Assembly (NCBI GenBank): GCA_018823175.1
Contig: JAHJIY010000070.1
Span: 1 to 64,000, forward strand
Length of the DNA stretch: 64,000 nt
From: Pseudomonadota bacterium
GTDB taxonomy: Bacteria > Desulfobacterota > Desulfobulbia > Desulfobulbales > JAHJIY01
Direction: 5' to 3'
Shown piece after piece: positions 27,104-48,129 of this stretch (position 1 is the first letter of the stretch; each line of letters starts with the position of its first letter). The notes beneath the pieces were generated by a model, which did no database searches, was not told the DNA's origin, and was given only the letters and a program-made list of their open reading frames with translations. The translations under genes were made by a program, and so were the position numbers.

Positions 27104-27104
27104 T

Positions 27105-28214
27105 ATGGAAGTACCATTTCTTGATCTGAAGTCACAAAACAGCTCCCTGCGGGACGAAATTCTGCCGCGCTGGGAAGAAATACTCGCTTCCGCCGGCTTT
27201 ATCGGCGGCCATTACGTAACTGGTTTTGAGCATGGTTTCGCCCAGGCCTGTAACTCCAGATACTGCGTGGCGGTCAATAGCGGCACCGATGCCCTGCGCT
27301 TTATTCTGCTCGCTCTTGACCTGCAACCGGGCGACGAAGTAATTACCGTCCCCAACACCTTTATCGCCACAACTGAAGCCATTTCACAGGCCGGGGGCAA
27401 AATCGTTTTCATCGATATTGATCCGCTGACCTACAATATCGACCCGACCAAAATAGAGGCTGCTATAACCCCTAAAACCAAGGGCATAATCCCGGTCCAC
27501 TTATATGGCCAGCCGGCCGAGATGGACACGATAAATAAGATCGCGGCAAAGCATAATCTCTGGGTGGTTGAAGACGCCTGCCAGGCACACCTCGCTGAAT
27601 ACCATGGTCGCAAGGCCGGGTCATTAGGAGTGGCAGCCGCCTTCTCTTTTTATCCCGGCAAAAACCTGGGCGCCTGCGGCGATGCCGGGGCGGTTACCAC
27701 CAATGATCCCCAAATAGCTGACCAGATACGCATCCTAAGAGACCATGGCCAGGAAAAAAAATATCACCATATCAGTGAAGGATTTAATGGGCGCTGCGAT
27801 GCAATCCAGGCCGCGGCCCTGCAGGTCAAACTTAAACATCTGCCGCAGTGGAACGAGGCCAGGAGACACAACGCCGCCCTCTACCATAAATTACTTAAAA
27901 ATATTAAAGGGATAACCCTACCGACCCAGACCGAAAATTGCCTGCCGGTCTACCACCTTTTTGTAATTCTGGTTGATGATCGTAACCAGGTGATGACTGC
28001 TTTAAACGAAAAGGGAATTTCAGCCGCCCTCCATTACCCGGTCCCGTTGCATCGGCAGAAGGCTTATGCTGAGATGAATTTAGAGGAAGGCTCTTTTCCG
28101 GTCGCCGAGGAATGCGCACGCAAGCTGCTGTCGCTTCCAATGTTTCCGGAATTAACCAAAGAACAGATAACTTATGTCTGTGAAAGTTTAAAAGAGATCA
28201 TCTTAAATAAGTGA
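27105..28214 (+). CDS. DegT/DnrJ/EryC1 sugar aminotransferase (1)
   Basis: 369 residues from the ATG at 27105, one base after the previous stop, with CAGGA upstream. It is PLP-dependent, and the Schiff-base Lys lies in '[18 protein letters not shown]'. Other blocks are '[15 protein letters not shown]', '[15 protein letters not shown]' and '[12 protein letters not shown]'. It would transfer an amino group to a keto-sugar nucleotide made by the upstream dehydrogenase (WlbE-like context). It overlaps the next gene. Confidence 0.85.
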
Positions 28215-28219
28215 AAACC

Positions 28220-29227
28220 ATGCTAACGATTCAAGACAAACAATGCCTGATCACCGGCGGCGCCGGTTTTATCGGCTCCCACCTGGTTGACCACCTCATC
28301 AATAATGGCTGCCGGGTCCGGGTCTTTGATAATCTGACCAATGGCCGACTGGACAACCTGACTCAACATCTTGGGGCAAAAAATTTCGAGTTTTTACAAG
28401 GCAGTGTAACCGATCCCTTTGATGTGGAACGAGCCATGGACGGGATTGAGATAGTATTTCACCTGGCCTGCCTGGGAGTCCGTCATTCAATAACCCATCC
28501 CTTTGAAAACCACCGGGTAAATACCGAAGGCGCCCTGTTATTACTCGACGCCGCCAGGCGGGCAAAAGTAAAACGATTTATCCATTGCTCATCGTCAGAA
28601 GTATACGGCACCGCCCAATATGTGCCGATGCCCGAATCCCATCCGACCAGACCATGCACGGTTTACGGCGCGAGCAAACTGGCCGGTGAGGCCTATGCCA
28701 TCGCATACCATAAAACATATGGCATGGAGACCGTAGTGATCAGGCCGTTTAACACCTTTGGCCCCCGTTCCCATCACGAAGGGGATGCCGGCGAGATGAT
28801 CCCAAAATCAATCGTCCGTGCCTTAAATGGCCGTAACATCCTGGTCTTTGGCGATGGCTCCCAGACCAGGGACTTCACTTATGTCGAGGATACGGCCCGC
28901 GGCCTGCTTGCGGCCGCGCAAAACGATGCAATGATTGGCCGAACCCTAAATATCGGCAGTAATTTTGAGATATCAATACAGGACCTGGCTGAAAAACTGC
29001 ATGACCTGGTCGGCAACCAAGAATCAGAGGTAGAAATGATGGCGGAACGACCCGGTGATGTCGGACGCCTTTACGCCGATCCATCAGTTTTCCTGAAATT
29101 AAGCGACTGGCGGCCGCAAGTTTCCTTTGCCGACGGACTGACCAAGACCATTGATTATTTCCGAAACCACCCGACCGGAATTGTATCCTTGCTTAAAGGT
29201 GAAACCGGACGCAATTGGGAGAAGTAG
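28220..29227 (+). CDS. NAD-dependent sugar-nucleotide epimerase/dehydratase
   Basis: About 335 residues of the extended SDR family. The cofactor motif is 'GGAGFIGSHLVDHL', the catalytic Ser region is 'HCSSSEVYGTA', and the YxxxK motif is 'YGASK'. A GTG at 28211 that overlaps the upstream stop is an alternative start. Acts on an NDP-sugar; whether as 4-epimerase or 4,6-dehydratase cannot be told. Last gene before the heptamer array and toxin-antitoxin insertion. Confidence 0.85.
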   Translation: MLTIQDKQCLITGGAGFIGSHLVDHLINNGCRVRVFDNLTNGRLDNLTQHLGAKNFEFLQGSVTDPFDVERAMDGIEIVFHLACLGVRHSITHPFENHRVNTEGALLLLDAARRAKVKRFIHCSSSEVYGTAQYVPMPESHPTRPCTVYGASKLAGEAYAIAYHKTYGMETVVIRPFNTFGPRSHHEGDAGEMIPKSIVRALNGRNILVFGDGSQTRDFTYVEDTARGLLAAAQNDAMIGRTLNIGSNFEISIQDLAEKLHDLVGNQESEVEMMAERPGDVGRLYADPSVFLKLSDWRPQVSFADGLTKTIDYFRNHPTGIVSLLKGETGRNWEK

Positions 29228-29533: not shown

Positions 29534-29782
29534 ATGGCATCGCAAATGATTATCAGGGTCGAAACAAGTTTAAAAAATAAAGTTAGTCAATTAGCAAAAG
29601 CAGAAGGAAAAAACCTGAGCGAACTCGTAAGAGAACTTCTCGAAAAATACACAAAAGAAAGAGATATGAGTGGTTATATCGACAACATCTGGGACAGGAT
29701 AGGGCGTAATTTATCCCAGAACAAACGGTCAGAGGCAAATATTGAAGAAGCAATAAAACAAGTGCGATCAAAAAATGACTAG
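29534..29782 (+). CDS. Ribbon-helix-helix antitoxin
   Basis: 82 residues. The N-terminal strand-helix-helix ('MIIRVETSLKNKVSQLAKAE', then 'NLSELVRELLEKY') is the RHH DNA-binding fold. The C-terminal half is charged and would wrap the toxin. It overlaps the PIN gene by 8 bases, the standard antitoxin-first order. Confidence 0.8.
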   Translation: MASQMIIRVETSLKNKVSQLAKAEGKNLSELVRELLEKYTKERDMSGYIDNIWDRIGRNLSQNKRSEANIEEAIKQVRSKND

Positions 29783-30309: not shown

Positions 30310-31548
30310 ATGATCCCCATCGCCAAACCATTTCTGGGCGAAGAAGAAGCGGCCGCCGCCCGCGCAGTCATCCTTTCCGGTTGGGTGACTCAGGGACCAA
30401 AGGTTAAAGAGTTTGAAGAAGACTTTGCATTATATGTCGGAGCAAAGCATGCCTGTGCCGTTTCAAATTGCACCACCGCCCTGCACCTGGCCCTGTTAAG
30501 CGTCGGGGTCCAGCCCGGCGAAACAGTGATCACCGTCAGCCACAGCTTTATCGCCACGGCCAATGCCATCCGCCACTGCGGCGCCGAACCGATCTTTGTC
30601 GACATTGACCCTGAAACCTACAATATATCTCCGCGCGAACTTGAGAACTGCCTGGCCTCAGAATGCAAACAAGAAAACGGTCAAAACTATTATATTGATA
30701 TAGAACGGCTGGCAGTTGGCGAGTCTCCTCTCTGTCACTGCACAAAGCCAACCGGTCGGGTAGCGGCAATTCTTGCGGTCCACCAGATGGGGATGCCCTG
30801 CGATTTAAGCAAAATCAAAAAAATAGCCTCTAGATACAATATACCGCTAATTGAAGACGCGGCCTGCGCGATTGGTAGTGAAATATCCCTTAATGAAAGA
30901 ATATGGGATAAAATCGGCAAACCACAGGGCGATGTGGCCTGCTTCAGTTTCCATCCCCGCAAAGTCTTAACCACTGGTGACGGCGGCATGCTGACCACCA
31001 ACGACCCGGAACTGGATGCTAAATTCAGACTATGGCGCCAGCATGGGATGAACGTGCCTGATACAGTGCGCCATACCGCCAAACAGGTTATCTTTGAAGA
31101 ATACCTGACCACCGGCTTTAATTACCGGCTGACCGATATCCAGGCCGCAGTTGGAATTGAGCAGTTAAAGAGAATTGACACCATGGTTAACGAGCGACGG
31201 CAACTTGCCGCCACCTACCAGGAATTGCTTGGCAAGATTAAAGGAATTACCCTGCCGGCCGAACCGGCTTGGGCCCGAACCAACTGGCAGAGTTATCCGG
31301 TCCGGCTTAATCAGGCCACCCCAAAGATTCAATTACAAATAATGCAATTTTTACAAGACAAAGAGATCGCTACCCGGCGTGGCATTATGAACGCCCATCA
31401 GGAAACGCCTTATACTGAGGCCAAATGGAGATTGCCGGTCAGCGAAAAAGCCCGGGACCAAGTTGTCCTCTTGCCTTTTTACAACGGAATAACAGACGAA
31501 GAGCAAAAACACATTGCCGATAGCCTGCAGGCAGCCTTATCAAAATAA
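30310..31548 (+). CDS. DegT/DnrJ/EryC1 sugar aminotransferase (2)
   Basis: 412 residues, PLP-dependent, with Lys in 'FSFHPRKVLTTGDGGM'. Conserved blocks are 'VSNCTTALHLALLSV' and 'VSHSFIATANAI'. It is longer than the first aminotransferase, because about 35 extra residues with several Cys lie between 'ISPRELENCLA' and 'RVAAILAVHQMGM'. It is probably the transaminase that supplies the amino-sugar for the acetyltransferase next door, as in PglE/PglD-type pathways (inference). Confidence 0.85.
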   Translation: MIPIAKPFLGEEEAAAARAVILSGWVTQGPKVKEFEEDFALYVGAKHACAVSNCTTALHLALLSVGVQPGETVITVSHSFIATANAIRHCGAEPIFVDIDPETYNISPRELENCLASECKQENGQNYYIDIERLAVGESPLCHCTKPTGRVAAILAVHQMGMPCDLSKIKKIASRYNIPLIEDAACAIGSEISLNERIWDKIGKPQGDVACFSFHPRKVLTTGDGGMLTTNDPELDAKFRLWRQHGMNVPDTVRHTAKQVIFEEYLTTGFNYRLTDIQAAVGIEQLKRIDTMVNERRQLAATYQELLGKIKGITLPAEPAWARTNWQSYPVRLNQATPKIQLQIMQFLQDKEIATRRGIMNAHQETPYTEAKWRLPVSEKARDQVVLLPFYNGITDEEQKHIADSLQAALSK

Positions 31549-31723: not shown

Positions 31724-32374
31724 ATGAAAAAAATCATCCTATTCCCTTTTAACGGCAATGCGATTGAGGCGGCCACGGTAATTGAAGATATTAATCTGGT
31801 CCGGGAAACCTGGGAGATTATCGGCTTTGTTGACGATGATCCCCAGAAAAAAGATCGTCCCTTCGGGGCATACAAAGTTATTGGCGGCAAAGAAAAAATA
31901 CTCGACTATCCAGAAGCAATGATCCTGGCAGTCCCGGGCCGCCCGGAAAACTATAAAAATCGAGCCGAAATCATAAAATTATTAAATATCCCTGCGTCAA
32001 AATTTGCCACCATCATCCATCCGCAAGCCAGAATCGGCATCAATTGCATAATAGGCCATAATACAATTCTCATGGCCAATGTCGTCCTTACCGCCAACAC
32101 CAGGATCGGCAATCATGTCGTGATCCTGCCTAATACGGTAATCTCACATGATTCCGTGGTCGGTGACTACAGTCTGCTCGGTTCAAATATTTCAATCTCC
32201 GGCCATGTCACGGTCAAACAAAACTGTTATATAGGTTCAGGGAGTAAAATTATTCAGGAAATTACAATTGGCGAAAAGTCCTTGCTCGGTCTTGGTTCGG
32301 TTGTTCTAAAAGATACATTTCCGGGTGCTGTGGTCGCTGGCAACCCGGCGAAGGAAATCAGAAAAAAGCAATGA
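31724..32374 (+). CDS. PglD/NeuD-type sugar O/N-acetyltransferase
   Basis: 216 residues. The N-terminal Rossmann-like domain ('IILFPFNGNAIEAATVIE', 'IIGFVDDDPQKKDRPFG') is typical of PglD/NeuD. It is followed by a left-handed beta-helix of hexapeptide repeats (about 100-205: 'IHPQARIGINCIIGHNTILM' and on) ending 'VVAGNPAKEI'. It acetylates the amino group of a UDP-4-amino-sugar using acetyl-CoA in related pathways. The gene overlaps the following GT2 by 4 bases. Confidence 0.85.
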   Translation: MKKIILFPFNGNAIEAATVIEDINLVRETWEIIGFVDDDPQKKDRPFGAYKVIGGKEKILDYPEAMILAVPGRPENYKNRAEIIKLLNIPASKFATIIHPQARIGINCIIGHNTILMANVVLTANTRIGNHVVILPNTVISHDSVVGDYSLLGSNISISGHVTVKQNCYIGSGSKIIQEITIGEKSLLGLGSVVLKDTFPGAVVAGNPAKEIRKKQ

Positions 32375-33351
32375 AGCTAAGCATAGTTATTCCCGCATAT
32401 AATGAAGCCGATAATATCGGCGAAACCATCAAAGAGTTGACCAAGATCATCCATGATCTTGACGATCCTCCCGCCTCTTATGAAATTATTGTGGTTGATG
32501 ATAGTTCTAGCGATCAGACTTTTGAAGCAATACAGGCCTTAGATAATACAAATGTTCGGATTATCCGGTTGAGCCGCCGGAGTGGTAGCCATATCGCCCT
32601 GCGAGCCGGACTGGACGCGGCCCACGGCAATGCGGCAATCTGCCTGGCCGCCGACGGGCAGGATAATCCCCAGGCCTTGAATGCGATGATTTCTCAATGG
32701 AAAGCAGGCCATGATATTGTTTGGGGCCTGAGAAAAAACCGCCAAAATGAACCTTTACTTAACAATCTATTTGCCAACCTTTTTTATCGATTATTATCCT
32801 GGTTCGGCGAAACATCCTCGCCTGATATTGACCTGTCCCGGGCCGATTTTTATCTGCTGGACCGAAAAGTAGTAAACGCGATCAAGTCCTGTCAGGAGCG
32901 CAACACCTCATTATTCGGCCTGATTGTCTGGCTGGGATTTTCTCAGACCTTTGTTGAATATGACCGTCGGGAACGACGCGCCGGCACCACAAAATGGAAT
33001 TTTAAAGGCCGATTGCAACTGGCCAAAGACTGGATCCTCGCCTTTTCCGGCCTGCCCCTGAAACTGATGACCGTGGTCGGTTTCTGTATTGCCGGAATTG
33101 GTTTTATCTATGCCGTTTTTGTTATCGTAAACAGCGTTATCTTCGGCAGCCCCCTGCAAGGCTGGGCTTCGGTAATGACCGCCATCCTGCTTTTAGGTGG
33201 CGGCCAGATCATGATGCTGGGGATTATCGGTGAATACCTGTGGCGGACCCTTGATGAGTCAAGGGACCGGCCAACCTATTTTATTGAAAAAGACACCCAC
33301 GACCAGATCACCGTCCCGACCCTTTCCAGGCGTCGGATGGATTCAAACTGA
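32371..33351 (+). CDS. GT2 polyprenyl-phosphate glycosyltransferase (DPM1/ArnC/GtrB-like)
   Basis: 326 residues. The GT-A domain begins 'LSIVIPAYNEADNIGETIK'. Metal-binding region 'DGQDNP', and 'YDRRERRAGTTKWNFKGRL' is typical of DPM1/GtrB-type enzymes. Two C-terminal membrane segments lie at about 228-255 and 265-290. Such enzymes load a sugar on undecaprenyl phosphate at the cytoplasmic face, to be used by a GT-C enzyme in the periplasm. The GT-C-like gene is two genes downstream, which supports this (inference). Confidence 0.85.
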   Translation: MKLSIVIPAYNEADNIGETIKELTKIIHDLDDPPASYEIIVVDDSSSDQTFEAIQALDNTNVRIIRLSRRSGSHIALRAGLDAAHGNAAICLAADGQDNPQALNAMISQWKAGHDIVWGLRKNRQNEPLLNNLFANLFYRLLSWFGETSSPDIDLSRADFYLLDRKVVNAIKSCQERNTSLFGLIVWLGFSQTFVEYDRRERRAGTTKWNFKGRLQLAKDWILAFSGLPLKLMTVVGFCIAGIGFIYAVFVIVNSVIFGSPLQGWASVMTAILLLGGGQIMMLGIIGEYLWRTLDESRDRPTYFIEKDTHDQITVPTLSRRRMDSN

Positions 33352-33364
33352 CAAGCCTGAAAAC

Positions 33365-33988
33365 ATGATCAAAAAATATTTATACAATCTCCTGGGCCAC
33401 CCTTTTATCTATCGCCTATCCCAAATTATTCTCGCCCCCGGGGCAGAGATTATTCTAACCAAGAAAATACAAGATCTGGCTAAAAAATTTCCTGCCTCCG
33501 GTCGAATTATCGATGTTGGCTGCGGCCCTTCAAGCTGGCTATGGCAAATAAAAATGTTGCCGGTCGGCCTGGATATCTCCTATCAATATTCAGTTAATTA
33601 TCATCGCCAGGCAAATCTGGCCGTAACCGGTTCAGCCATTTCTTTGCCGATATTAACGGAGACTTTTGACGGAATCTGGTGTATTGGTGTCCTCCATCAT
33701 CTGCCGGACCAGGCAGCCAAAGAGGCCATAAATGAAATGCTCCGCATCTGCCAACCAGGCGGCCATGTGATAATCATGGACGCGGTCCTTCCGAAAAAAT
33801 CATGGCTCCGGCTTATCGCCACCATGATCAGAAGAATGGACCGAGGAGAATTTATCCGTTCACAACAAGATCTCAGCTCCCTGTTGCCCGACGAAGTAAA
33901 CTGGTCAATTTCCCGTTACACCTACGCCATGACCGGCCTGGAAATGCTGGAATGTACATATCGAAAACCGTTATCAGTAAAAAAATAA
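33365..33988 (+). CDS. Class I SAM-dependent methyltransferase (1)
   Basis: 207 residues from the ATG at 33365; longer versions overlap the GT2 gene. SAM motif I is 'IIDVGCGPSSWLW', post-I 'LDISYQY', and motif with 'FDGIWCIGVLHHLPDQAAK'. The substrate is unknown. Its place between a lipid-sugar transferase and a GT-C protein suggests methylation of the glycan or its carrier (inference). Confidence 0.8.
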   Translation: MIKKYLYNLLGHPFIYRLSQIILAPGAEIILTKKIQDLAKKFPASGRIIDVGCGPSSWLWQIKMLPVGLDISYQYSVNYHRQANLAVTGSAISLPILTETFDGIWCIGVLHHLPDQAAKEAINEMLRICQPGGHVIIMDAVLPKKSWLRLIATMIRRMDRGEFIRSQQDLSSLLPDEVNWSISRYTYAMTGLEMLECTYRKPLSVKK

Positions 33989-33992
33989 TCCC

Positions 33993-36185
33993 ATGACCCT
34001 GCCATCATCCCTAACAGAGCATTCAACTCCATCCTCAAATACCCCGAATTATCATTGGGGATGGGCCACCTTCCTCATCGTTATCACCTTAGCAACTCTG
34101 GGCTTTCGCTATGCGATGCCGATTCGGGACGGTGATATCTGGTGGCATATGCTCTATGGCAAGTATTTTTTGGATAATCTCACCCTGATTCCCGACCACA
34201 CTATTTTTTCCTGGACTCCGTCTAATAACGACACCCTCTACTGCACCTGGCTGGCAGATATCTTTTTCTATCTGGTGCATAAGGTTTCCGGATTAACCGG
34301 ATTATTCATTGTCCGTTATCTATGCCTATTCTCCCTCATCCTGACCTGCTTTCTTTATGCCCGCAAGCTGAAGGTCCTCTTTCACCCCATAGTCTGGATC
34401 GTTTGTCTTATTGCCTTGCTAATGTCCTATACGGCCGCCTTTGTCAAACCGGAAATCCTTTCCTTTATGTTTATGACTTTAATCAGTTGGAACTGGTGGC
34501 AGATAAGAACCAATGGCGAAAAAGCCTGGCGAAACTGTTACCTGTTCCCCGTAATTATGCTCATCTGGGTCAACAGTCATGGCGGTTTTATTTTTGGGGT
34601 AATATTCTTACTAATAATCGGGGCTGGGGAATTATTTAATACCTGGTTCAGTCATGGCAATACGTTGTCTCGTCAATGCCGAAAACATTTGCTAATTTCA
34701 TTAATACTTGCAGCCATTGCAATATTAATCACTCCTTATGGATATACTTATCCACTTCAGCTTCTCCAGCAAATAATCCCAACTCAGGAAAATATAAATT
34801 ATAATCAGAAAGTCGCTTCCTATATGGCTACATTTGATGGCGGCACGCCTTTTCATGATTTCTCATTATATGCCAATCTGGCAATTCTCTTTCTAGTGAT
34901 TATTTATGGCATAAATTTTAAGAAAAAAAATATCGAATGGTCCTCTTTACTCTTAAACCTTATTTTTGCTTTTCTATATTCACGATTTTACCGAACAACT
35001 TTTTACTGGGCTCCCATTTTTATGTTTTCATGCATCAGCTTACTTCCCGGAACTCAATTTTTTTCTTTATTTCCGATCAATAAAATCTCCAAAAAAATTC
35101 AACAAGCCAGCCCAATACTCCTTATTTTGGTAGGAATTTCCCTCTCCGCTGATGCCTACAAAAATAGTGCCATTAACCCGGAGGCATATCTGTGGATGGG
35201 GTTTGGAATCAGTGAAATTAACCCTGTTGAAGAAGCGCAGTATATAAAAAAATTCTTCCCGACTAGTAGAATCGGCAATGGATATGATCAGGGAGCTTAT
35301 CTGCTTTGGTTACTCTGGCCGGAAAACCGGGTTTTTTTTGATTCCAGACATTTCCCATATAAAAAATGGAGCGACGAATATTTTTCTTTTATCTTTGGCT
35401 CCAATGTTCGAGAAATGACTAAAAAATACCCTTGTGACCTTTGGTGTATAAGCCTTCAAAGAGCTCGGCTTATTTTAACCTTACTTCTCAATGACGAATG
35501 GAAGCTTGCTTATTACGGGAAAAATTCTGCAGTAATCATTCGTTCCGACATCCCTCTCCCGAACAAAGCTCCTCGCGTTAGCGAAGAAATCACGAATTCG
35601 AAAAGTTTACCAAACGCTATCAACATCTTCGCCTTTGCCTGTAACATCAAAGACTGGCAAATAGCCGACAAAGTACTAATTGCCATGCGAAACAACTTCA
35701 GATGGAATTCACAACAATTTAGAGTTCAACAAGCCACTTATTATCTCGAAGGAATCAAGGCTTATTACGAGCAGAATTACCAGAAAGCAATTGACAATAT
35801 CATAAAAGCCCACCCTGACCTCATAGACTCAGACCTTGTTTTGACAAATTGTTTTTTAGCCCTTTCGGCACAGGCATGGAAAAACAATAATGAGTCAGAA
35901 GCGCTAGAACTTACCTTGAAAGCCTGGGAGCACTCACCAGGCAACCTATATTCGGCCTACAATGCCGGCATTATTTTATGGTATAAGCAGCAGCAAAACT
36001 TATCATCCTCCAACCAACCATCATTGCGTGACGAGAACACCCCGACCTGGCATGAATACCTTGAGTATTTCCTCAAAAAAGCACCGAAAAATTCATTTTA
36101 TGAAAACCCTATTTACATTGCCCAAAAAATTCTGAATAATGAGTTTAAGGATCGCCCCCACATGATCCTTCCGAAGGAATTATAA
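33993..36185 (+). CDS. Large GT-C-like membrane protein with C-terminal TPRs (1)
   Basis: 730 residues. About ten membrane segments occupy residues 10-390. An early periplasmic loop has 'RDGDIWWHMLYGKYF' (acidic plus WWH), as in GT-C glycosyltransferases. 'NSHGGFIFG' and 'FFDSRHFPYKK' are shared with the protein at 41279-43129, which defines a paralogous pair. The C-terminal 200 residues are helical with TPR-like repeats ('AWKNNNESEALELTLKAWEH'). It probably transfers a lipid-linked sugar outside the cytoplasm. The gene ends about 270 bp before pilA, so the pilin may be the acceptor (inference). Not a family I can name. Confidence 0.65.
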   Translation: MTLPSSLTEHSTPSSNTPNYHWGWATFLIVITLATLGFRYAMPIRDGDIWWHMLYGKYFLDNLTLIPDHTIFSWTPSNNDTLYCTWLADIFFYLVHKVSGLTGLFIVRYLCLFSLILTCFLYARKLKVLFHPIVWIVCLIALLMSYTAAFVKPEILSFMFMTLISWNWWQIRTNGEKAWRNCYLFPVIMLIWVNSHGGFIFGVIFLLIIGAGELFNTWFSHGNTLSRQCRKHLLISLILAAIAILITPYGYTYPLQLLQQIIPTQENINYNQKVASYMATFDGGTPFHDFSLYANLAILFLVIIYGINFKKKNIEWSSLLLNLIFAFLYSRFYRTTFYWAPIFMFSCISLLPGTQFFSLFPINKISKKIQQASPILLILVGISLSADAYKNSAINPEAYLWMGFGISEINPVEEAQYIKKFFPTSRIGNGYDQGAYLLWLLWPENRVFFDSRHFPYKKWSDEYFSFIFGSNVREMTKKYPCDLWCISLQRARLILTLLLNDEWKLAYYGKNSAVIIRSDIPLPNKAPRVSEEITNSKSLPNAINIFAFACNIKDWQIADKVLIAMRNNFRWNSQQFRVQQATYYLEGIKAYYEQNYQKAIDNIIKAHPDLIDSDLVLTNCFLALSAQAWKNNNESEALELTLKAWEHSPGNLYSAYNAGIILWYKQQQNLSSSNQPSLRDENTPTWHEYLEYFLKKAPKNSFYENPIYIAQKILNNEFKDRPHMILPKEL

Positions 36186-36360
36186 TTTAACGACATAATT
36201 AATTGAAATAAAGTCGTGTGACAAAGATTGGCGTACATGACAATAATTGTCATTTATTTTCTTATTTTACTTTCTTACTAAGAAAGGCTGGACTCTCAAA
36301 AGTCCTTTGTTTCCAGCTTTTCATGAAGGATAATTATATCTTGCTGTTTGTTTTTCAAAA

Positions 36361-36376
36361 TGGCATAATGATTGCA
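36361..36376 (+). promoter_or_regulatory. Sigma-54 promoter of pilA
   Basis: TGGCATAATGATTGCA matches TGGCAC-N5-TTGCA in spacing and at all but one consensus base. It is 75 bp before the pilA start. Pilin genes in proteobacteria are often driven by sigma-54 with PilS/PilR (known); the regulators are not in this window. Confidence 0.85.
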
Positions 36377-36451
36377 TTCTTTAAATCTGTCTTTAAAAGG
36401 CTTGTCTTTACGGGAGATTACACCCAAACATTAATAAGAGGAGGAGAAGTA

Positions 36452-37150
36452 ATGAATTTCAAGAAAAGTAACGAACATGGTTTTACCCTCGTTGAGCTGA
36501 TGATCGTTGTAGCGATCATTGGTATCCTGGCAGCAATCGCCATCCCGCAGTTTGCGGCCTATCGGACCCGTTCGATGAACGCCAACGCCAAGGCCTTGAA
36601 CAAAATGGTAGTAAGTTCCGAGGCTGATCTTAATGCCGAGCTTGGCTGTTTTGGTGAAACGGAAAATCAGGCCGCCGGCAACACCTTAATCCAACTTGTT
36701 GGAGCGCCGGGTGCTGGAGCAATCATGGACTCAGTTGCTGTTCCGGAATATGCGGTTCCAGCCTCCGCTACTACAGCAGGTGGTCGTCTCTCAGGAAATA
36801 ACGACGGCACCGGCAAAACTTTTTCAGTGCCACTTGGCATTGGTGCTAACATGGTCGCCTTGGCCAATACCCCAACGGCTGTAGCTGGGACAAACCAGGC
36901 TACCTCGCACACCATTTTCACCAAACATTGGCAAGGAGATACCGTCTACGGCTCTGACTCTGATTCACCAAACAATCTTTACAGCGTCAGTCATGCGGGC
37001 TGGGTAGGAAACACCACAAATAATCGTCTACAGGCAGCAACTGCCGCCGCAGTAACCAGTGCAGTCACCTTCGATGCTGATTTAGATCCGGCAACTGCTG
37101 ATGTTGCTGGTGCCGGCGCCCCGACACCAAACTGGGCAATCGTTCAGTAA
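36452..37150 (+). CDS. pilA: Type IV major pilin (PilA)
   Basis: 232 residues from an ATG preceded by GAGGAGGAG. The class III leader 'MNFKKSNEHG' is cut before 'FTLVELMIVVAIIGILAAIA', with Glu at +5. 'FAAYRTRSMNANAKALNKM' continues the N-terminal helix. The globular domain is Gly/Ala/Thr-rich and larger than in short Geobacter-type pilins. It contains only one Cys, so no disulfide loop is possible. An extended upstream reading to 36218 lacks support. Own sigma-54 promoter and terminator imply strong, separate expression. Confidence 0.92.
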   Translation: MNFKKSNEHGFTLVELMIVVAIIGILAAIAIPQFAAYRTRSMNANAKALNKMVVSSEADLNAELGCFGETENQAAGNTLIQLVGAPGAGAIMDSVAVPEYAVPASATTAGGRLSGNNDGTGKTFSVPLGIGANMVALANTPTAVAGTNQATSHTIFTKHWQGDTVYGSDSDSPNNLYSVSHAGWVGNTTNNRLQAATAAAVTSAVTFDADLDPATADVAGAGAPTPNWAIVQ

Positions 37151-37174
37151 GCAACTGATTCAAATTTTCACCTA

Positions 37175-37220
37175 GACACAATCCGGGAGCTATAAATTCT
37201 CGGATTGTGTCTTTTTTTTT
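37175..37220 (+). terminator. Intrinsic terminator after pilA
   Basis: An 11-bp perfect stem (37175-37185 with 37201-37211), a 15-base loop and nine T. It likely allows partial read-through to the ABC genes. Confidence 0.92.
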
Positions 37221-37336
37221 GTATATAACCTCACTGAATCAACTCTCTTTTAAAGAGTTGGTATTTTTTCAAAATAGCTTATTCTATCTCCACTCTCCAT
37301 AAATGATCAAAGACTGAAAACTCATAAAGAATACCA

Positions 37337-38083
37337 ATGCCCCCAGCCATCCAAATTGATCAAATCAACAAATCCTTTCTTTCTGGTCGCACCACAAATT
37401 ACGCCCTGAATAATCTTTCTTTGATCATTCAAAAAGGCGAGGTTTTTGGCTTTTTGGGTCCCAACGGCGCTGGAAAATCGACAACGATCAAACTGCTACT
37501 CCATTTCCTGAGACCGGACAGTGGCACCATGCAAATAATGGGCAACACTATTGGCCGCGATGAGTTTCGCCATCAGATTGGCTATCTTTCAGAGTTCCCC
37601 TGTTTTTATGATCACCTATCTGCAACCGAGACCTTAATGCTTGCCGGTCGCTTGAGCGGTATGTCAAAAAACACATTGCATATTCGGATACCCGAGCTTT
37701 TAGCCCGGATGGGACTTTCTGACGCTGCAAATCGAAGAGTTGGTGGCTTTTCAAAAGGAATGAAACAACGTCTCGGCATGGCCAATGCACTTATTCATAA
37801 TCCACAAATTTTAATTTTTGACGAACCTATGAGTGGCTTGGACCCGATCGGCCGACACCTCATTAAAGATATAATCCTGGAGTTGAAGAAACTAGGTAAA
37901 ACAATCTTTTTCAGCTCCCACATCTTAAGCGATATCCAGGCACTCTGTGACCGGATCGGCATTATACATAAAGGCAAATTGCTTTACGATGGCAAACTGG
38001 CTGATTTCATTCAAAATGACCACCTTGAAGATCGTTTTGTCGCCATGATTGAGGAGAATGACCGTGCAGCAATCTCTCATTAA
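37337..38083 (+). CDS. pilH: ABC transporter ATP-binding protein, PilH-like
   Basis: 248 residues. Walker A 'GPNGAGKST', signature 'VGGFSKGMKQR', Walker B 'ILIFDEPMSGLDP' and switch His in 'FFSSHILSD' are all intact. It is of the NatA/ABC-2 exporter type. In Myxococcus xanthus pilG, pilH and pilI follow pilA and are needed for pili (known). Here pilA is followed by an ATPase, a permease and a third protein, so this is probably PilH. It overlaps the permease gene. Confidence 0.8.
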   Translation: MPPAIQIDQINKSFLSGRTTNYALNNLSLIIQKGEVFGFLGPNGAGKSTTIKLLLHFLRPDSGTMQIMGNTIGRDEFRHQIGYLSEFPCFYDHLSATETLMLAGRLSGMSKNTLHIRIPELLARMGLSDAANRRVGGFSKGMKQRLGMANALIHNPQILIFDEPMSGLDPIGRHLIKDIILELKKLGKTIFFSSHILSDIQALCDRIGIIHKGKLLYDGKLADFIQNDHLEDRFVAMIEENDRAAISH

Positions 38084-38885
38084 CATCTGGGTTCTTGCTC
38101 TTTCCACGATGATCGAAGGAATGCGGCACAAGGCACTATGGGCGATTGTTGTTTTTGCCATTATTATTTCGATGACCAATATTTTTGTGACCAATCTCTT
38201 CTCCTATGATTTAGGAAAGGTTTCGATCGAGTTTGGCCTTTCCTCCGTAGCGCTTACCGGCCTTTTGCTGGTTTTTTTCCTCGGAATGAAAATTTTAGCC
38301 GATGACCTGGAACACAATCGGATCTATATGCTCATCTCCCGCCCGGTTTCAGTTGGCCAATATATCACCGGCAAATTTTTCGGCCTGGGACTTATTCTGT
38401 TGATTGGCACAACCATAATCGGTTTGGGATCCACACTCTCAATGAAATATGTCCTTTTCCGTTATGCGCCATTTGTTCCTCCCGATTTTTCCTGGACAAC
38501 ATACGTAATGGCCCTGTCCTGTCAATGGATGTCACTACTTGTGGTGCTGGCTGTAAGCTTCCTCTGTTTCTGTTTTGCAAAACAACCTTTTGTCGCCCTG
38601 CTTTTAGCTGTTTCGTCATATCTTGTCGGCCAAAACCTGGAGCTTTTACGCAGAGTCATCAACGAAAATCCATATACCGGAGCCCTTGCCGGCCAAGAGA
38701 AACTTGTTTTTGCTCTTTCCTGGATATTCCCGAATCTTTCTTATTTTGATAAAAAAAGTGTAGCGGCGTATGGCCTGTTATTCAGCGGTCAGGAATTCTT
38801 GTTTTTATGCCTTTACTGTATCTCCTACTGTGCTTTAATGCTTTATCTTGCAACATTGTTATTTAACCGCAAAGAACTTGCCTAG
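38064..38885 (+). CDS. pilI: ABC-2 type permease, PilI-like
   Basis: 273 residues from a GTG at 38064, because GAGGAG at 38051-38056 is correctly spaced for it and too close for the ATG at 38058. Six membrane segments are visible, the first at about residues 25-48, the last ending near 265. It pairs with the upstream ATPase as a membrane exporter. The substrate is unknown. In M. xanthus this system is required for pilus biogenesis, which this neighbourhood suggests as well. Confidence 0.75.
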   Translation: MQQSLINIWVLALSTMIEGMRHKALWAIVVFAIIISMTNIFVTNLFSYDLGKVSIEFGLSSVALTGLLLVFFLGMKILADDLEHNRIYMLISRPVSVGQYITGKFFGLGLILLIGTTIIGLGSTLSMKYVLFRYAPFVPPDFSWTTYVMALSCQWMSLLVVLAVSFLCFCFAKQPFVALLLAVSSYLVGQNLELLRRVINENPYTGALAGQEKLVFALSWIFPNLSYFDKKSVAAYGLLFSGQEFLFLCLYCISYCALMLYLATLLFNRKELA

Positions 38886-38889
38886 CCTG

Positions 38890-39774
38890 ATGCGATCTGT
38901 CTCCAGAAACATACTGGTGGTCCTTGCTTTTACAGTTTTCTACATAGCAAGTCATAATGCCCTTATTTATTCACGCAACGTTTCAACACTAAACCAACAA
39001 ATTTATTCCTCTACCTGGCTCTTACCAAGTATTGCCCTGGAAGTTATCGCCGGAGAATTCAAGGGCTTGATTGCAGACCTCATCGTGCTTGAGGCCGGGG
39101 CTCAGTTGGGCACTGAAATTATCCGGACCCCTGAAGGCGAATTTAAAACTGTCCGCAAACAATACAATTGGCCGATTATTTCCCGTCTTCTCTCCAATAG
39201 CCAGACCCTCGACCCTCGTTTTCAGCACACCTACATGTTGGCACAAGGATGGCTTCCGTGGGAAGCTAAGATGATTGACGAAACCTTTACTATCCTGCAA
39301 ACAGCGGCTGAAAATCGCCCTTGGGACTGGCAACCATTCCGCCTTATGGGCTTTGACACCTATTACTTTCTAAATAATCCGGGCGAGGCCGGCAAAATTT
39401 TTCTCAAGGCATCCCAAACTCCAGGCGCACCACCTTATCTGGCTATTTTGGGAGCACGGCTCGCTCAGAAAGGAGGCGAAACATCAGCAGCAATCATGTT
39501 AATGAAATCAATGCTTGCCACAAAAACTGAAAAGGACTTCAAGTATCAGGCCATGGTTGACCGGTTGACAACACTTGAAGGAGTCATGATAATCGAAATC
39601 GCCGTCGAAAAATATCAAACCCGTTTTGGACGAAAACCATCTTCAATTAATGAACTGCTCGATAACGGCATCATCACTTCTCTTCCGAAAAACCCCTATG
39701 GCGACAAATACTGCATTGATAGTGACGGACGGGTCCAGTTCGACAATCTGTATTGCCCCCCGCCTTCTCAATAA
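38890..39774 (+). CDS. pilG: PilG-like pilus accessory protein
   Basis: 294 residues. An N-terminal membrane anchor (about 7-24, 'NILVVLAFTVFYIA') is followed by helical, TPR-like sequence ('HTYMLAQGWLPWEAKMIDET', 'GKIFLKASQTPG'). The C-terminal 60 residues look like the end of a GspG-type pseudopilin: 'IAVEKYQTRFGRKPSSINEL' then 'LPKNPYGDKYCIDSDGRV'. It starts four bases after the permease stop. By position it corresponds to PilG of the M. xanthus PilGHI set (inference from synteny and size). Confidence 0.6.
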   Translation: MRSVSRNILVVLAFTVFYIASHNALIYSRNVSTLNQQIYSSTWLLPSIALEVIAGEFKGLIADLIVLEAGAQLGTEIIRTPEGEFKTVRKQYNWPIISRLLSNSQTLDPRFQHTYMLAQGWLPWEAKMIDETFTILQTAAENRPWDWQPFRLMGFDTYYFLNNPGEAGKIFLKASQTPGAPPYLAILGARLAQKGGETSAAIMLMKSMLATKTEKDFKYQAMVDRLTTLEGVMIIEIAVEKYQTRFGRKPSSINELLDNGIITSLPKNPYGDKYCIDSDGRVQFDNLYCPPPSQ

Positions 39775-39789
39775 AAATTTGCACCATCG

Positions 39790-40536
39790 TCAACTTGGTC
39801 CCGAGAACACCTTAAACCGCTTTTTAAATATCCATCCTTTTATTCGATATGAAAGGATCAAACGGATCATCCGCAAACCAAGAAAAAAAGCGACAATCTT
39901 ATTGCCAGTAACAGCAGAATGCCCGACCCGTTGAGAATAATTGACCGGCAATTGAACGATCTTCATTCTGGTAATAACCGTCAGCAGCATCATCTCTGGG
40001 CCGAAAAAACTGCCGTTGACTGTAAAATAGCTTTCAATATGCTTGAGCGCTCGACGATTAATACAGCGAGTAGTGCAGCCGACATCAGTCAATGAAGTCG
40101 TATTAAAAAGAACCTCCATCAATTTAGCTACGGCATAATTCCCCCACTTCAGGAATATTCCCATATTGGCACCTTCCCAGATGAGTTCTTTTACAGTACG
40201 ACTACCATAAACAACATCATAATCATCAGCATAAGCGAGCAGTTTGACAATATCGCGCCCAAAAAAGGTTCCATCAGGTTCCGAGACTATAATATATTCC
40301 CCAACTGCCTCCCGAAAGCCGCGCCGAATCGCAGCCCCATACCCTTGAGTCGGCTCCATAATCTCTCTGGCAATAGTCTTCGCCACCTCCTCACTGGTAC
40401 CAGGTGCGGCATTATTATTTATAACAATGATCTCATCGGCGATATCCTGATATTGAAAATCTTCAATGGCAGCTCTTATGGATTCCTTCTCGTTATAGGT
40501 AGGAAAAACAACAGACACTTTCTTCCCTTGCCACAT
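39790..40536 (-). CDS. GT2 glycosyltransferase (2)
   Basis: 248 residues of a DPM1-like GT-A enzyme: 'VSVVFPTYNEKESIRAAIED', 'YGAAIRRGFREAVGEYII', metal site 'EPDGTF', and 'LPVNYSQRVGHSAVTG'. Unlike the GT2 at 32371 it lacks C-terminal membrane segments. It is the last gene of a minus-strand triad and converges on the pilG-like gene with a 15-base gap. Probably makes a polyprenyl-phosphate or other sugar intermediate (inference). Confidence 0.8.
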   Translation of the reverse strand: MWQGKKVSVVFPTYNEKESIRAAIEDFQYQDIADEIIVINNNAAPGTSEEVAKTIAREIMEPTQGYGAAIRRGFREAVGEYIIVSEPDGTFFGRDIVKLLAYADDYDVVYGSRTVKELIWEGANMGIFLKWGNYAVAKLMEVLFNTTSLTDVGCTTRCINRRALKHIESYFTVNGSFFGPEMMLLTVITRMKIVQLPVNYSQRVGHSAVTGNKIVAFFLGLRMIRLILSYRIKGWIFKKRFKVFSGPS

Positions 40537-40543
40537 CTTGTCA

Positions 40544-41179
40544 CTATTCCTTTACCGCCACAACATACATTTGGGCAGCCATGGGCTTAATTGGAGAATT
40601 AAGATAAAGTCTGACAAGAAATTGCCACTTGGGCAATCTAGACTTCATACTAAAAGGCAGAAGAGCTGGAACAAGGGTTCGAATAGCAAATCCGTATTTA
40701 CCAAGAAACTCAGGCAACATTAAGTCAGAAAAAATAGTTTTATGGGTTGGATCGTCAAAATAGTTCTTCTCGCAAAAACGGTAGTTGGGCTGAATAAATA
40801 CCAGTAACCCTCTTGGCCGAAGCACTTTTCTAATCTCCGGCATTAGATCATCCAACTCATTCATATCTAAATGCTCAAAAAAATTACTCGCAAAAACCAT
40901 ATCCACACTTTCTATTTCCAGACGGGATACAGCCATTGCATCATCACAATATACGCGGACATCATCCGCTGCATAGAGTTTCATCTCCGGATTTATTTCA
41001 TAGGCAATTTTGTTGAACGCTGGAAAAAGATTGATGAAATCACAATATCCAGGCCCCAATTCCACTAATGTTTGAATATCACCTACATTTTTAGCAATAA
41101 ACCGCACAATCTCGTGCCACACATGCCTCCTACTTTTCAATAAAGGATAACGATCTTTATAAGGATTGCCTTTCGTCAT
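40544..41179 (-). CDS. Class I SAM-dependent methyltransferase (2)
   Basis: 211 residues. Motif I is 'LVELGPGYCDFIN', followed by 'VDMVFASNFFEHLDMNEL' and 'VLRPRGLLVFIQPNYRFCEK'. Seven bases separate it from the GT2 stop downstream. It is in the same class as the methyltransferase at 33365 but not closely similar by eye. Role in glycan modification is inferred from neighbours. Confidence 0.8.
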   Translation of the reverse strand: MTKGNPYKDRYPLLKSRRHVWHEIVRFIAKNVGDIQTLVELGPGYCDFINLFPAFNKIAYEINPEMKLYAADDVRVYCDDAMAVSRLEIESVDMVFASNFFEHLDMNELDDLMPEIRKVLRPRGLLVFIQPNYRFCEKNYFDDPTHKTIFSDLMLPEFLGKYGFAIRTLVPALLPFSMKSRLPKWQFLVRLYLNSPIKPMAAQMYVVAVKE

Positions 41180-41278
41180 TGTTATAGGTTCTCCAATCAG
41201 TAAATCAATTGCTTACAACAACATATTCTAACAAAACCAGTTAGTCCAATTATTCAGCTTATTATTAGTTAGGAGATC

Positions 41279-43129
41279 TTATTTTGCCGGCATCTCTTTT
41301 AAACTACCGTTTTGAAGAATTGTTAGAAGTGTATTCGCTGTTTGATTTTTTGTTGAAAGTTCAAGGGATTTTTCGAGTAATATTTTTACTTTCTCACCAT
41401 ACAATCCCTTACCCATGAACCCAAAGGCGATGTTCGAATAAAAGTTACTGTGCATGCCATATCGCAGCCCCATTTTACCTTCAGCGATTAACTCATCAAA
41501 AAGAATATCTTTATCTTTTCTGTATAAATTGATGATGTGTTTAAATTTCGGGATATCTTTTAGAAAGATCATGACATAACCATCAGCGTACACTAGTATC
41601 CAGTTTCCAGAAAGATATAACTTTAACGGTAAAATATACAAATTCCCATTCAATATTTGCATCGCTTCATGAATGACTATTTCAGCATTTATAGAATTTA
41701 ACAATACAAGTGGATCCTGTTGCGTATTGTTTATATCGTTGGAGTTTAAATTATAAAGTTGACTGCTTTTACCCAGAACAAGTTTGACAAAATTATTTCT
41801 TTCTGTTTGATAAATTGATTCCCCACCAGATATTTTATTCAACATTTCAATTCTATCCGGATATAAATGTCTTGAATCTACATAAATATTTGATTCAGGA
41901 TAGAGACTAAACATAAGATATGATGACTTATTATATGTGCTGAATATATTACCAGAAATTAGATTTCTCCTCATGAACTCTGCCGCTGAGACTGGATAGG
42001 AGAGATTATTTTTAAAACGAAAAGTATTGATTTTTTTTCCTGGGTACAGCCATAATATTCCAATCATCACAATAAACAAGACAGTTAGAGATACCGGATA
42101 ATGAAATCTCTTTGAAATTTCCGGCAATTTAAATTGTAAATGGCTGATCGCAATACTAACTGTAATGACCATTAATGGAATAAACCTCACAGCAGTGAAA
42201 GCCATGAATGTCGAAGCTGCTACTAATAATAACGGCAGAAGTTGTTTTTTTTGGATAGAATAGATAATTATCAGTAAATTCAGAGGAAGAATACACCAAA
42301 ATTTAATAACACCCGGAGAGAATATTTGAAAAGAATGAAATGGTGACTGCAACTCTATTACATTTTTATAAACATCTGTATAATGAGACGCAAATGCGAA
42401 CCCGATAGCATCCAATCCATTAGGGTTAAATGAAGCCATCACAAAAGACAATAAAGAAATGATAGATAGCTGTTTTAATAATGATCTGTCTAAACTATCA
42501 TTCCAGTATGGCAAATAATTATTAATTATATATGCAACAAGATGAATAGTAATAATTAGAAGACCAAATATGTATCCACCATGCATATTTGCCCAAATAA
42601 TCATCAATAAAGGAATTGGTATAATATATTTTATATTTGATTGTTTCGTAAATTGTAAAAATTGATATAAAATAATTGCCGAAAAAAGAAAAGAGATGAG
42701 AACAGGTCTTAGGGTGTAATATTGACCATGCAACAGATACGCCGTGTAGAAAATAGAGAATGCTAACGACAGTATAAAGTGTTTTCCTTTAAGGGTCTTC
42801 TGCACTATGAAGATAATAATTGTAAACAAAACGGCCCGTAAAGTGATAAGACCTGGCACACCGAATTTCGAGTAAACAAAAGCCAGAAAAGCCTGTCCAA
42901 GCCAGTACTGAGTCAAGACGAACTTACTAGTAAATGGCAAGAAATTATTGTCGGTGGAGTAAGTAAATGGATCACTTGTTGGAATTGTCTTTGTTGCCAA
43001 GATGTACTTTCCAGTGGCGAGATGCCATGGAAGATCCGGATCAATCAGATCGATAACAAAATACAGAAAAATAAGAATAAAAAATAATACAACTGTAATT
43101 TGCTGAATTATCCTGTTATATTTTACCAA
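41279..43129 (-). CDS. Large GT-C-like membrane protein (2)
   Basis: 616 residues from a TTG with AAAGGAGG a few bases upstream. It has about ten membrane segments. The first periplasmic loop is 'DLIDPDLPWHLATGKYIL', then 'NMHGGYIFG', 'SNIYVDSRHLYPD' and a helical tail. These landmarks match the protein at 33993-36185 in order, so the two are paralogs. It lacks the longer TPR tail. The sequence is more AT-rich than its surroundings, which may indicate transfer. Confidence 0.65.
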   Translation of the reverse strand: MVKYNRIIQQITVVLFFILIFLYFVIDLIDPDLPWHLATGKYILATKTIPTSDPFTYSTDNNFLPFTSKFVLTQYWLGQAFLAFVYSKFGVPGLITLRAVLFTIIIFIVQKTLKGKHFILSLAFSIFYTAYLLHGQYYTLRPVLISFLFSAIILYQFLQFTKQSNIKYIIPIPLLMIIWANMHGGYIFGLLIITIHLVAYIINNYLPYWNDSLDRSLLKQLSIISLLSFVMASFNPNGLDAIGFAFASHYTDVYKNVIELQSPFHSFQIFSPGVIKFWCILPLNLLIIIYSIQKKQLLPLLLVAASTFMAFTAVRFIPLMVITVSIAISHLQFKLPEISKRFHYPVSLTVLFIVMIGILWLYPGKKINTFRFKNNLSYPVSAAEFMRRNLISGNIFSTYNKSSYLMFSLYPESNIYVDSRHLYPDRIEMLNKISGGESIYQTERNNFVKLVLGKSSQLYNLNSNDINNTQQDPLVLLNSINAEIVIHEAMQILNGNLYILPLKLYLSGNWILVYADGYVMIFLKDIPKFKHIINLYRKDKDILFDELIAEGKMGLRYGMHSNFYSNIAFGFMGKGLYGEKVKILLEKSLELSTKNQTANTLLTILQNGSLKEMPAK

Positions 43130-46663: not shown

Positions 46664-46689
46664 TAAATAGTGACGAGTAACAAGTAAAT

Positions 46690-48043
46690 GTTGAGTGCCA
46701 CAACATCGCGCACACTTTTAAGTGCCATGACATCGTGGACACTCTTTATTTTTAACGTAATTTATAATCAAATTCCTCGACCTGGGATTTGCCCAGAAAG
46801 AGTTGTAGTTTTTGATCTTTGACATCGATAGTAGCCACCACGTATTCGTACATGAGTTCTGGCGGAACCCGGAAGAGTTCTCCGAAGATGTTGATCTTCG
46901 TATCTCTACGGATAAGACGGACTAAATGATACCTTCCCGTTATCGGTTTATTTAGCCGATGCCGAGGAGGAGCACCATTTTCTGGAAATCGCAATTTGGT
47001 TGCCGATGCAGCAAGAGCCCTGAGCGGTGTTTTGCCGCCAATTTTACTATAACGGTATTTGCTGTTATGGCGTTGCTCAAAGCCCAGCGAACTAGTTTCA
47101 AGATCACTCATTGAAAGCATTACTTGTTTGGCAAGGAACATCTGTTGATAACGGTCATTGAAACTTTCAATCATTCCGTTTCTCCATGGCTCAGACATCG
47201 GGATAAACCATGGTTCAACTCCATTGTGCAAACACAGTCGAATGAGTGGCCCCATTCCACGTGGATGGGTCGGACTGCCAAAGAAAGACATGGCATTATC
47301 AATTTGAATATGGTTTGGAATGCCCATGCGCTTCCAGATGAGCCATAACCCGTCTATGATTGCCTGCCCAGACTTGGAAAGTGCTGGGTGCAAACCACAT
47401 CGGACAGTTGCCGTATCAATGATATTTAGGCTGTAAAATCGGATCGGACCCTTCAGATAGCATGGCCCGACCAGATCAGCTTGGTGTGTTTGATTCGGTA
47501 TTAGTGACGATAGACCGGGATAAGCGATTCCCTTGGCTTCATATTTACCGGTTCTTCGATGCGTCAGCCCATTACGGTTTAAAATCCGGTTGACCGTTCT
47601 GTTTGATGGCAATGGTTTTACGCCAAGGTCTTCCAATTCCCACAGGATTGCCTGGGCGCCGCAGAACAAACCTTGATTGTAGAGATTGAGGCGAATCATT
47701 TTGACTATTTCTTCAATCTCTGAAGGTGTACGACATTGGATTGAATGCGGACAGCGAGATTGACTTCGATTCCATGAATTGTCATGCTCTCGATATCGTC
47801 TGATCCACTTATACAACCAGGTTCTGGACTTACCGAGCGATGCACAGATTGTTTCTGGGCTCTCGCCGTTTTTGAATCGCTCTACAGCATGAATACGGTA
47901 CAACTCGATTTCTTCTTCCATGAACACCTCCTGAAGTAATGGTATTCATGAGTAAGAAATTAGTGGCTATTCGATTGTCAAAGAACATTTGTTGTGCACG
48001 ATGTTATGGCACATTTTTTTGTAAACGATGTTGTGGCACTTAC
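46690..48043 (-). mobile_element. IS481-like insertion sequence, apparently intact
   Basis: About 1.35 kb. The ends are inverted: the left begins gttgAGTGCCACAACATCG and the right reads gtAAGTGCCACAACATCG on the other strand. Each end carries a second internal copy of the motif GTGCCA(T)xACATCGT. CAAGTAAAT at 46681-46689 is repeated at 48044-48052 and is the likely 9-bp target duplication. It carries one complete transposase gene. Confidence 0.75.
46752..47921 (-). CDS. DDE transposase (IS481-like, HTH plus rve integrase core)
   Basis: 389 residues from the ATG at 47921, with AGGAGG six bases upstream; the GTG at 47927 overlaps that site. An N-terminal HTH ('ERFKNGESPETICASLGKSR') is followed by a second HTH region, then an integrase core with Asp in 'HQADLVGP', Asp in 'IQIDNAMS' and Glu in 'GMIESFND'. 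No frameshift, so the element is probably active or recently so. Confidence 0.85.
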   Translation of the reverse strand: MEEEIELYRIHAVERFKNGESPETICASLGKSRTWLYKWIRRYREHDNSWNRSQSRCPHSIQCRTPSEIEEIVKMIRLNLYNQGLFCGAQAILWELEDLGVKPLPSNRTVNRILNRNGLTHRRTGKYEAKGIAYPGLSSLIPNQTHQADLVGPCYLKGPIRFYSLNIIDTATVRCGLHPALSKSGQAIIDGLWLIWKRMGIPNHIQIDNAMSFFGSPTHPRGMGPLIRLCLHNGVEPWFIPMSEPWRNGMIESFNDRYQQMFLAKQVMLSMSDLETSSLGFEQRHNSKYRYSKIGGKTPLRALAASATKLRFPENGAPPRHRLNKPITGRYHLVRLIRRDTKINIFGELFRVPPELMYEYVVATIDVKDQKLQLFLGKSQVEEFDYKLR

Positions 48044-48129
48044 CAAGTAAATAGTAAAAACTTGTTACTCGTCATTCGACACTCGTCACTATTCACTCGT
48101 CACTATTAACTATTTAATCGTCAATAAAA

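Follow-up and report, generated by a model that had tools for sequence, protein, structure and literature searches.

The question raised by the locus described here is whether the sugar-transfer genes found around a type IV pilin gene form a system dedicated to the glycosylation of that pilin. The window, namely the whole stretch of 64,000 nucleotides analysed (positions 1 to 64,000 of the forward strand of contig JAHJIY010000070.1, assembly GCA_018823175.1, from a Pseudomonadota bacterium placed by GTDB in the Desulfobulbales), carries pilA and the pilH-, pilI- and pilG-like genes (pilHIG) between two sets of genes, each encoding a GT2 glycosyltransferase, a methyltransferase (MT) and a GT-C-like membrane protein. 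They are named GT2_L, MT_L and GTC_L in the left set, which is considered together with pilA-pilHIG, and GT2_R, MT_R and GTC_R in the right set, on the minus strand. A preliminary description had read the two as matching triads of one two-enzyme pilin glycosylation system using methylated sugars. The named genes are indeed all found, with Pfam assigning GT2, methyltransferase, prepilin and ABC ATPase domains; the interval 33993-36185, there given for the whole left triad, is that of GTC_L alone. The left set is probably a dedicated type IV pilin glycosylation cassette centred on an unnamed STT3-fold GT-C bearing tetratricopeptide repeats (TPR), for which we infer the acceptor and the donor.

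That the GTC_L type is tied to pilin genes elsewhere, the point on which the preliminary description had suggested a check, was confirmed for its left-type members. Of 395 genomes of the phylum searched with GTC_R, 67 contain relatives, and neighbourhoods were fetched for about 40 of these and for order-level matches, yielding a sample of 60 members biased to good matches of the two window proteins. A prepilin gene lies within 3 kb of 17 of the 27 long members (690 amino acids, aa, or more) versus only 2 of the 33 short ones (Fisher p 2.7e-6, a value that overstates independence because the members are related). The pilin genes of the long members, which mostly bear TPR, are all on the same strand and mostly less than 0.7 kb away. 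On the family tree the pilin label changes 5 times versus 15.7 times in shuffles, pilin-linked members clustering in several clades; the GTC_L clade (five rows, support 100/99) is entirely pilin-linked, and one clade has the order pilB-pilT-pilC-pilS-pilR-GTC-pilA, with the middle genes named by position.

In the window the left set and the genes around it are laid out as follows (percentages are identities in syntenic loci; L-labels denote fetched loci and G-labels genomes compared).

26066..27103, plus strand: Gfo/Idh-type sugar dehydrogenase, UDP-GlcNAc 3-dehydrogenase-like (NF040723, E 2e-48, below cutoff; syntenic in L016, L017, L045, L047 and L205)
27078..28214, plus strand: DegT-family sugar aminotransferase A (PseC-like, E 7e-80, below cutoff; syntenic, 63-70% in L017, L045, L047 and L205)
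28211..29227, plus strand: short-chain dehydrogenase/reductase (SDR) type nucleotide-sugar dehydratase/epimerase, LegB/RmlB/GalE-like (NCBIfam, E 2e-73, below cutoff; syntenic, 66-71%)
30310..31548, plus strand: DegT-family sugar aminotransferase B (PseC/LegC-like, E 6e-93, below cutoff; syntenic, 61-74%)
31724..32374, plus strand: NeuD/PglD-family sugar acetyltransferase (TIGR03570, above curated cutoff; syntenic, 56-58%)
32371..33351, plus strand: GT2_L, GtrB/ArnC-like polyprenyl-phosphate sugar synthase (syntenic, 60-66% in four genomes)
33365 (likely start)..33988, plus strand: MT_L, class I S-adenosylmethionine (SAM) methyltransferase (Methyltransf_11, E 2e-11; syntenic, 44-53% in L016, L017, L045, L047 and L205)
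33993..36185, plus strand: GTC_L, unnamed GT-C membrane glycosyltransferase with a periplasmic domain and C-terminal TPR-like repeats (AlphaFold and Foldseek)
36361..36376, plus strand: sigma-54-like promoter site (TGGCATAATGATTGCA, 1 mismatch, 76 bp 5' of the pilA ATG; weak)
36452 (ATG)..37150, plus strand: pilA, major type IV pilin (N_methyl motif, E 3.5e-10; Myxococcus PilA-like N-terminus; orthologues 54-63% in syntenic loci)
37174..37212, plus strand: intrinsic terminator directly 3' of pilA (16-bp stem, T run; strong)
37337..38083, plus strand: pilH-like ABC transporter ATPase (ABC_tran, E 2e-31; syntenic, 63-70%)
38049..38885, plus strand: pilI-like ABC-2 permease (weak ABC2_membrane_2 match; syntenic, 56-74%)
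38848..39774, plus strand: pilG-like accessory protein (named from position and synteny; syntenic, 44-55%)

This order (dehydrogenase, in some loci a hexapeptide acetyltransferase, DegT, SDR, DegT, PglD, GT2, MT_L, GTC_L, pilA, pilH, pilI, pilG) recurs in five other Desulfobulbales-type genomes (G063, G090, L045, L047 and G594; six with the window), two of the syntenic contigs stopping within pilI or pilG. Identities are 45-52% for GTC_L, 54-63% for pilA and 56-74% for pilH/pilI. Thus, the transferase gene shows the conserved adjacency to the major pilin gene that is expected of a pilin-accessory glycosylation cassette. Local differences exist: G063 lacks DegT_A and the SDR gene at the locus, while the GT2 of L045 is more distant (38%) and no PglD match was found there. 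In G594 minor-pilin genes directly follow the left cassette. A terminator after the pilin gene, as found here, has been described for pilin-accessory cassettes (PMC11841053); sigma-54-like sites are not enriched in the window. Among the features interrupting the clusters, an antitoxin-like and PIN-toxin-like pair lies inside the sugar cluster of the window (29534-30194), a very similar pair adjoining another family member (L025:8847-9525), and AAA/DUF4143-type ATPase genes are inserted in two relatives (L017:8781-9992 and L047:14541-15710), either inside the left cassette or in the pilA-pilH interval.

The structural models of the two GT-C proteins resemble protein glycosyltransferases in fold. 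The AlphaFold model of GTC_L, built with the 60-member alignment (pLDDT 90.3, pTM 0.89), consists of a membrane domain, a mixed periplasmic domain (about residues 412-517) and TPR-like helical repeats (539-714). All 10 of its Foldseek matches in the PDB at E <=1e-3 are protein glycosyltransferases, namely STT3 of the yeast and human oligosaccharyltransferase (OST), bacterial PglB and the C-mannosyltransferase DPY19 (E 3.5e-7 to 4.8e-4), with TPR proteins and ArnT coming after. The GTC_R model (pLDDT 77.3, pTM 0.81) gives 13 such matches, again all protein glycosyltransferases (STT3, 5e-6; DPY19, 1e-5; PglB, 1e-3; also AglB), and ArnT is matched by this model as well. Family-wide conserved columns are D46/D48, G56, W192-N194-H196, P248, R334, P443, D450 and R452. 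Among them D48, often within a DxD, is invariant in the 60 members and follows the first helix of the model, so that two marks of the GT-C_A superfamily are present: a multi-helix membrane fold, as seen by Foldseek, and a first periplasmic loop with a conserved acidic position.

In Pfam neither protein has a match; in particular, STT3 (PF02516) and the STT3-PglB core (PF21436) give none at E 0.1, a Wzy_C/WaaL-like domain is absent, and no PMT_2/TMTC domain is matched. NCBIfam offers no model for the membrane part of GTC_L, only a weak TPR-type match. Attempts at naming the family through these collections failed, as the models matched by most of the 60 members are TPR models and none covers the membrane domain. 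A WWDYG-like motif in common with STT3 (GGYLIW...DGR, alike by eye) was not supported by profile comparison and is a lead only; the search for a sequence link to solved GT-Cs gave chance matches only, for example to cytochrome b559. Plasmid-borne relatives of the family were sought and none was found.

The partners of GTC_L are compatible with a lipid-linked donor. GtrB and ArnC are polyprenyl-phosphate glycosyltransferases, and GT2_L matches GtrB sll0501 (5ekp) with E 3e-72 over residues 2-306 of 326, and ArnC with E 9e-35, a full-length similarity accompanied by hydrophobic C-terminal segments. The upstream genes resemble an acetylated amino-sugar pathway (Gfo/Idh dehydrogenase, two PseC/LegC-like aminotransferases, 4,6-dehydratase/epimerase and NeuD/PglD acetyltransferase). 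With these assignments, the dehydrogenase, aminotransferases, SDR enzyme and acetyltransferase would make a nucleotide-activated acetylated amino sugar, which GT2_L would load onto polyprenyl phosphate, and the lipid-linked sugar would then be flipped across the membrane. GTC_L, whose GT2_L partner suggests transfer from a polyprenyl-linked donor, would use its STT3/PglB-like fold and periplasmic TPR arm to pass the sugar to PilA side chains, either ahead of pilus assembly or while it proceeds. The role proposed for MT_L, methylation of this sugar or of a precursor, is a candidate step read solely from the class I methyltransferase domains. Because of the STT3-like fold and the persistent position beside pilin genes, GTC_L probably decorates the pilus with a sugar.

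Several observations weigh against this assignment. Whole-chain TM-scores to STT3, PglB and DPY19 are only 0.35-0.50, and therefore the relation to known GT-Cs is fold-level; profile searches gave no sequence relation to solved GT-Cs nor to a local STT3/PglB protein, and the lipid-carrier steps are predicted from protein families only. GTC_L is present in 13 of 258 genomes of the order (E 1e-40), and is therefore accessory and not needed for pili generally. Furthermore, relatives of about 600 aa have no pilin gene in the stretch examined in four genomes of one genus, three of which have flanks long enough to exclude a nearby one. These relatives (L206:8788-14771, L207, L208 and L209) have as neighbours a VKOR-like protein, a further GT-C and a GspF-type gene, which may connect them with type II secretion. 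The adjacency to the GspF-type gene (L206-L208) and the varied surroundings of the short members are what would be expected if GTC_L modified other extracytoplasmic acceptors, such as pseudopilins or lipids, its position beside pilA being a historical accident. However, same-strand adjacency to pilin genes at such short distances has been met repeatedly, in several separate clades, so that we consider this explanation very improbable.

The slot beside pilA is also occupied by other GT-Cs. When 20 pilA loci were collected by pilin similarity rather than through the GT-C, 10 of them were found to encode another kind of GT-C/TPR protein (544-690 aa), about 0.4-3.4 kb from the pilin gene and often with pilI-pilG-pilH. 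The name TMTC-like is given to these proteins from their motifs; their membership in the GTC_L family, considered for those of Geobacter-type pilA loci, was ruled out (hhalign probability 3%). The neighbours of pilA in L189 are a genuine STT3/PglB protein (PF02516, PF21436) and a TPR GT-C. Thus, unrelated enzymes of one functional class appear to replace each other at pilA, which favours pilin as the acceptor. The region of L189 in question (3947-15188) is a dense pilin or surface glycosylation island, where the STT3/PglB protein and the TMTC-like TPR GT-C are accompanied by GT2_R and MT_R orthologues, an MBOAT protein and an AlgX-like SGNH protein. Geobacter-type pilA loci with a TMTC/PMT_2-like TPR GT-C near the pilin gene, often with a pilI-pilG-pilH-like transporter, are L172-L176, L185 and L167-L169.

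These loci also bring in the view that the cluster makes a surface polysaccharide, exported by the PilHI-type ABC transporter, with pilin not being the acceptor. In Geobacter sulfurreducens the xap cluster (GSU1498-1508) is described as a polysaccharide cluster, and xapD (GSU1501), encoding an ABC ATPase near pilA, as exporting a biofilm polysaccharide (PMC4974642, PMC3495685). XapD looks like a PilH-type ATPase, as judged from position and annotation only, and the window cluster does include sugar-nucleotide genes. However, the genes examined included none of Wzx, Wzy or polymerase type, the fold matches of the GT-C proteins are to protein glycosyltransferases, and relatives of pilH, pilI and pilG accompany pilA also at loci where no GT-C was seen. 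Polysaccharide export as the function of the window cluster is, on balance, improbable, and the xap cluster itself may partly concern pilin.

A dedicated pilin glycosylation role thus being preferred for the left set, the contribution of the right set is to be considered. Its features are the following.

39790..40536, minus strand: GT2_R, dolichyl/polyprenyl-phosphate-hexose synthase-like GT2 (Glycos_transf_2, E 8e-18; AglJ-like, E 1e-18, below cutoff)
40544..41179, minus strand: MT_R, class I SAM methyltransferase (Methyltransf_11, E 7e-9)
41279..43129, minus strand: GTC_R, short-type member of the GT-C family of GTC_L (GC 0.32; E 4e-19 to GTC_L)
46689..48045, strand not assigned: insertion sequence (IS) at the far end of the right insertion (transposase 46752-47927, PHROG, E 6e-24)

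The preliminary description was correct in considering the two GT-C proteins as paralogues (BLASTP, 23% over 436 aa), and the acidic-WH, HGG and DSRH landmarks it had noticed coincide with conserved columns of the whole family. The triads are nevertheless not a matched pair. GT2_L and GT2_R (25% over 223 aa, E 4e-8) belong to different subtypes, GtrB/ArnC-like versus AglJ/dolichyl-phosphate-hexose-like, GT2_R giving weak matches to DPM synthase and ArnC; the similarity between MT_L and MT_R is not significant (E 0.02); the order of transcription is GT2-MT-GTC on the left versus GTC-MT-GT2 on the right, and GTC_R forms an isolated long branch outside the clade of GTC_L. Recent duplication of a triad, or its inversion, was rejected, since no relation is detectable between the methyltransferases, the GT2s differ in subtype and a long tree distance separates the GT-Cs. 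A third, weaker GT-C paralogue is encoded in the same genome (L054:8641-10269), adjoining a PMT_2 protein. It lies in a second glycosylation-type cluster (L054:902-10269), where a probable methyltransferase, a GT2-like gene and two more membrane proteins of 640 aa are also present.

The junctions indicate how the right set came to its place. In L045 yhaM directly follows pilG, and is 65% identical to window 48130-49164, whereas in the window 8.3 kb separate pilG and yhaM, containing the right set, purL and the IS, which has imperfect inverted ends (53-nt arms, 75% complementary). From the L045 adjacency, the right set, purL and the IS therefore appear to have been inserted in the window. The GC content at third codon positions (GC3) is 0.31 for GTC_R, 0.37 for MT_R and 0.43 for GT2_R versus 0.44-0.63 in the other genes measured, and the best relative of GTC_R in the order sample is 30% identical. 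The right set is an accreted, independently acquired, lineage-specific low-GC cassette of similar chemistry, whose target may be the same pilus or a different acceptor.

The possibility that PilA is the acceptor for both triads, with GTC_L and GTC_R each adding a methylated sugar of its own, as had been originally proposed, draws on the contact of the right set with pilG in the window and on the comparison of GT2_R-MT_R pairs, found adjacent or nearly so in four other genomes. In L189 the counterparts (GT2_R, 81%, MT_R, 62% identical) are about 2.8 kb from pilA, beside the STT3/PglB and TMTC-like GT-C proteins, whereas the three more distant pairs have no pilin gene nearby; a pair near pilA in one of four genomes makes a pilin role possible, resting on that one case. 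The insertion deduced from L045, the low GC3, the distance of GTC_R from its relatives and its short type, with 2 of 33 members pilin-linked, argue against joint action, which we regard as unlikely. Thus, of the original proposal, dedicated pilin glycosylation is retained for the left set, by taking into account its synteny with pilA-pilHIG, the OST-like fold, the polyprenyl-phosphate-sugar synthase partner and the phylum-wide pilin linkage of long members, while the combination of left and right sets into one system is not.

Other elements were observed in the window at a distance from these sets. On the minus strand (12048-25379) PilY1 and a minor-pilin set (pilX, pilV, pilW and fimT) are present in two successive copies. 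A filamentous-phage-like element is found at 2201-8801, with a Zot/protein I homologue (3945-4991) and an integrase (7209-8441); the tmRNA gene (8444-8801) directly adjoins it and is probably its attachment site.

Among known systems, one of the closest by description is TfpW of Pseudomonas aeruginosa group IV, a GT-C pilin arabinosyltransferase that, like GTC_L, is encoded beside the major pilin and that glycosylates it (PMC11841053 and its reference list). TfpW differs in being encoded downstream of pilA and in adding D-arabinofuranose. TfpO/PilO, TfpM and PglS are also membrane enzymes, often encoded beside the pilin they modify, but together with PglL they share Wzy_C/WaaL-type domains (PMC12645811), of which GTC_L and GTC_R have no match. 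STT3, PglB and AglB provide the best fold match of both models; GTC_L and GTC_R differ from them in lacking an STT3 Pfam match or profile similarity to the local STT3, and GTC_L in its C-terminal TPR arm. The TMTC/PMT_2-like proteins combine GT-C and TPR as GTC_L does, and in Geobacter-type loci they take up a comparable position near pilA, but they form another sequence family. In the Pgf system of Streptococcus mutans (PgfS, PgfM1/M2 and PgfE) a GT2, a PMT-type membrane protein and a sugar enzyme modify surface proteins (PMC5856776); GT2_L scores 205 bits to PgfS, below the PgfS cut-off of 500 bits, and the Pgf system differs in that its acceptors are cell-wall adhesins and PgfM1 is of the PMT_2 family.

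In a recent review, the pilin-specific O-oligosaccharyltransferases are WaaL-like (PMC12645811), with TfpW as the known GT-C exception (PMC11841053). There is about an even chance that GTC_L represents an unnamed class of pilin-dedicated protein glycosyltransferases, with an STT3-like fold, no WaaL, Wzy_C or STT3 signature and a TPR arm, widespread in Desulfobacterota and exchangeable at pilA with TMTC-like and STT3/PglB enzymes. If so, the reading could be carried over to the xap cluster next to pilA in Geobacter: so far taken for a polysaccharide cluster, it would in part be a pilin glycosylation locus, which would provide a testable alternative reading for part of it. The modification of conductive and adhesive pili has been little studied in sulfate and metal reducers, and a widespread pilin-tied GT-C family would bring sulfate reducers and Geobacter-type metal reducers into the range of pilin glycosylation.

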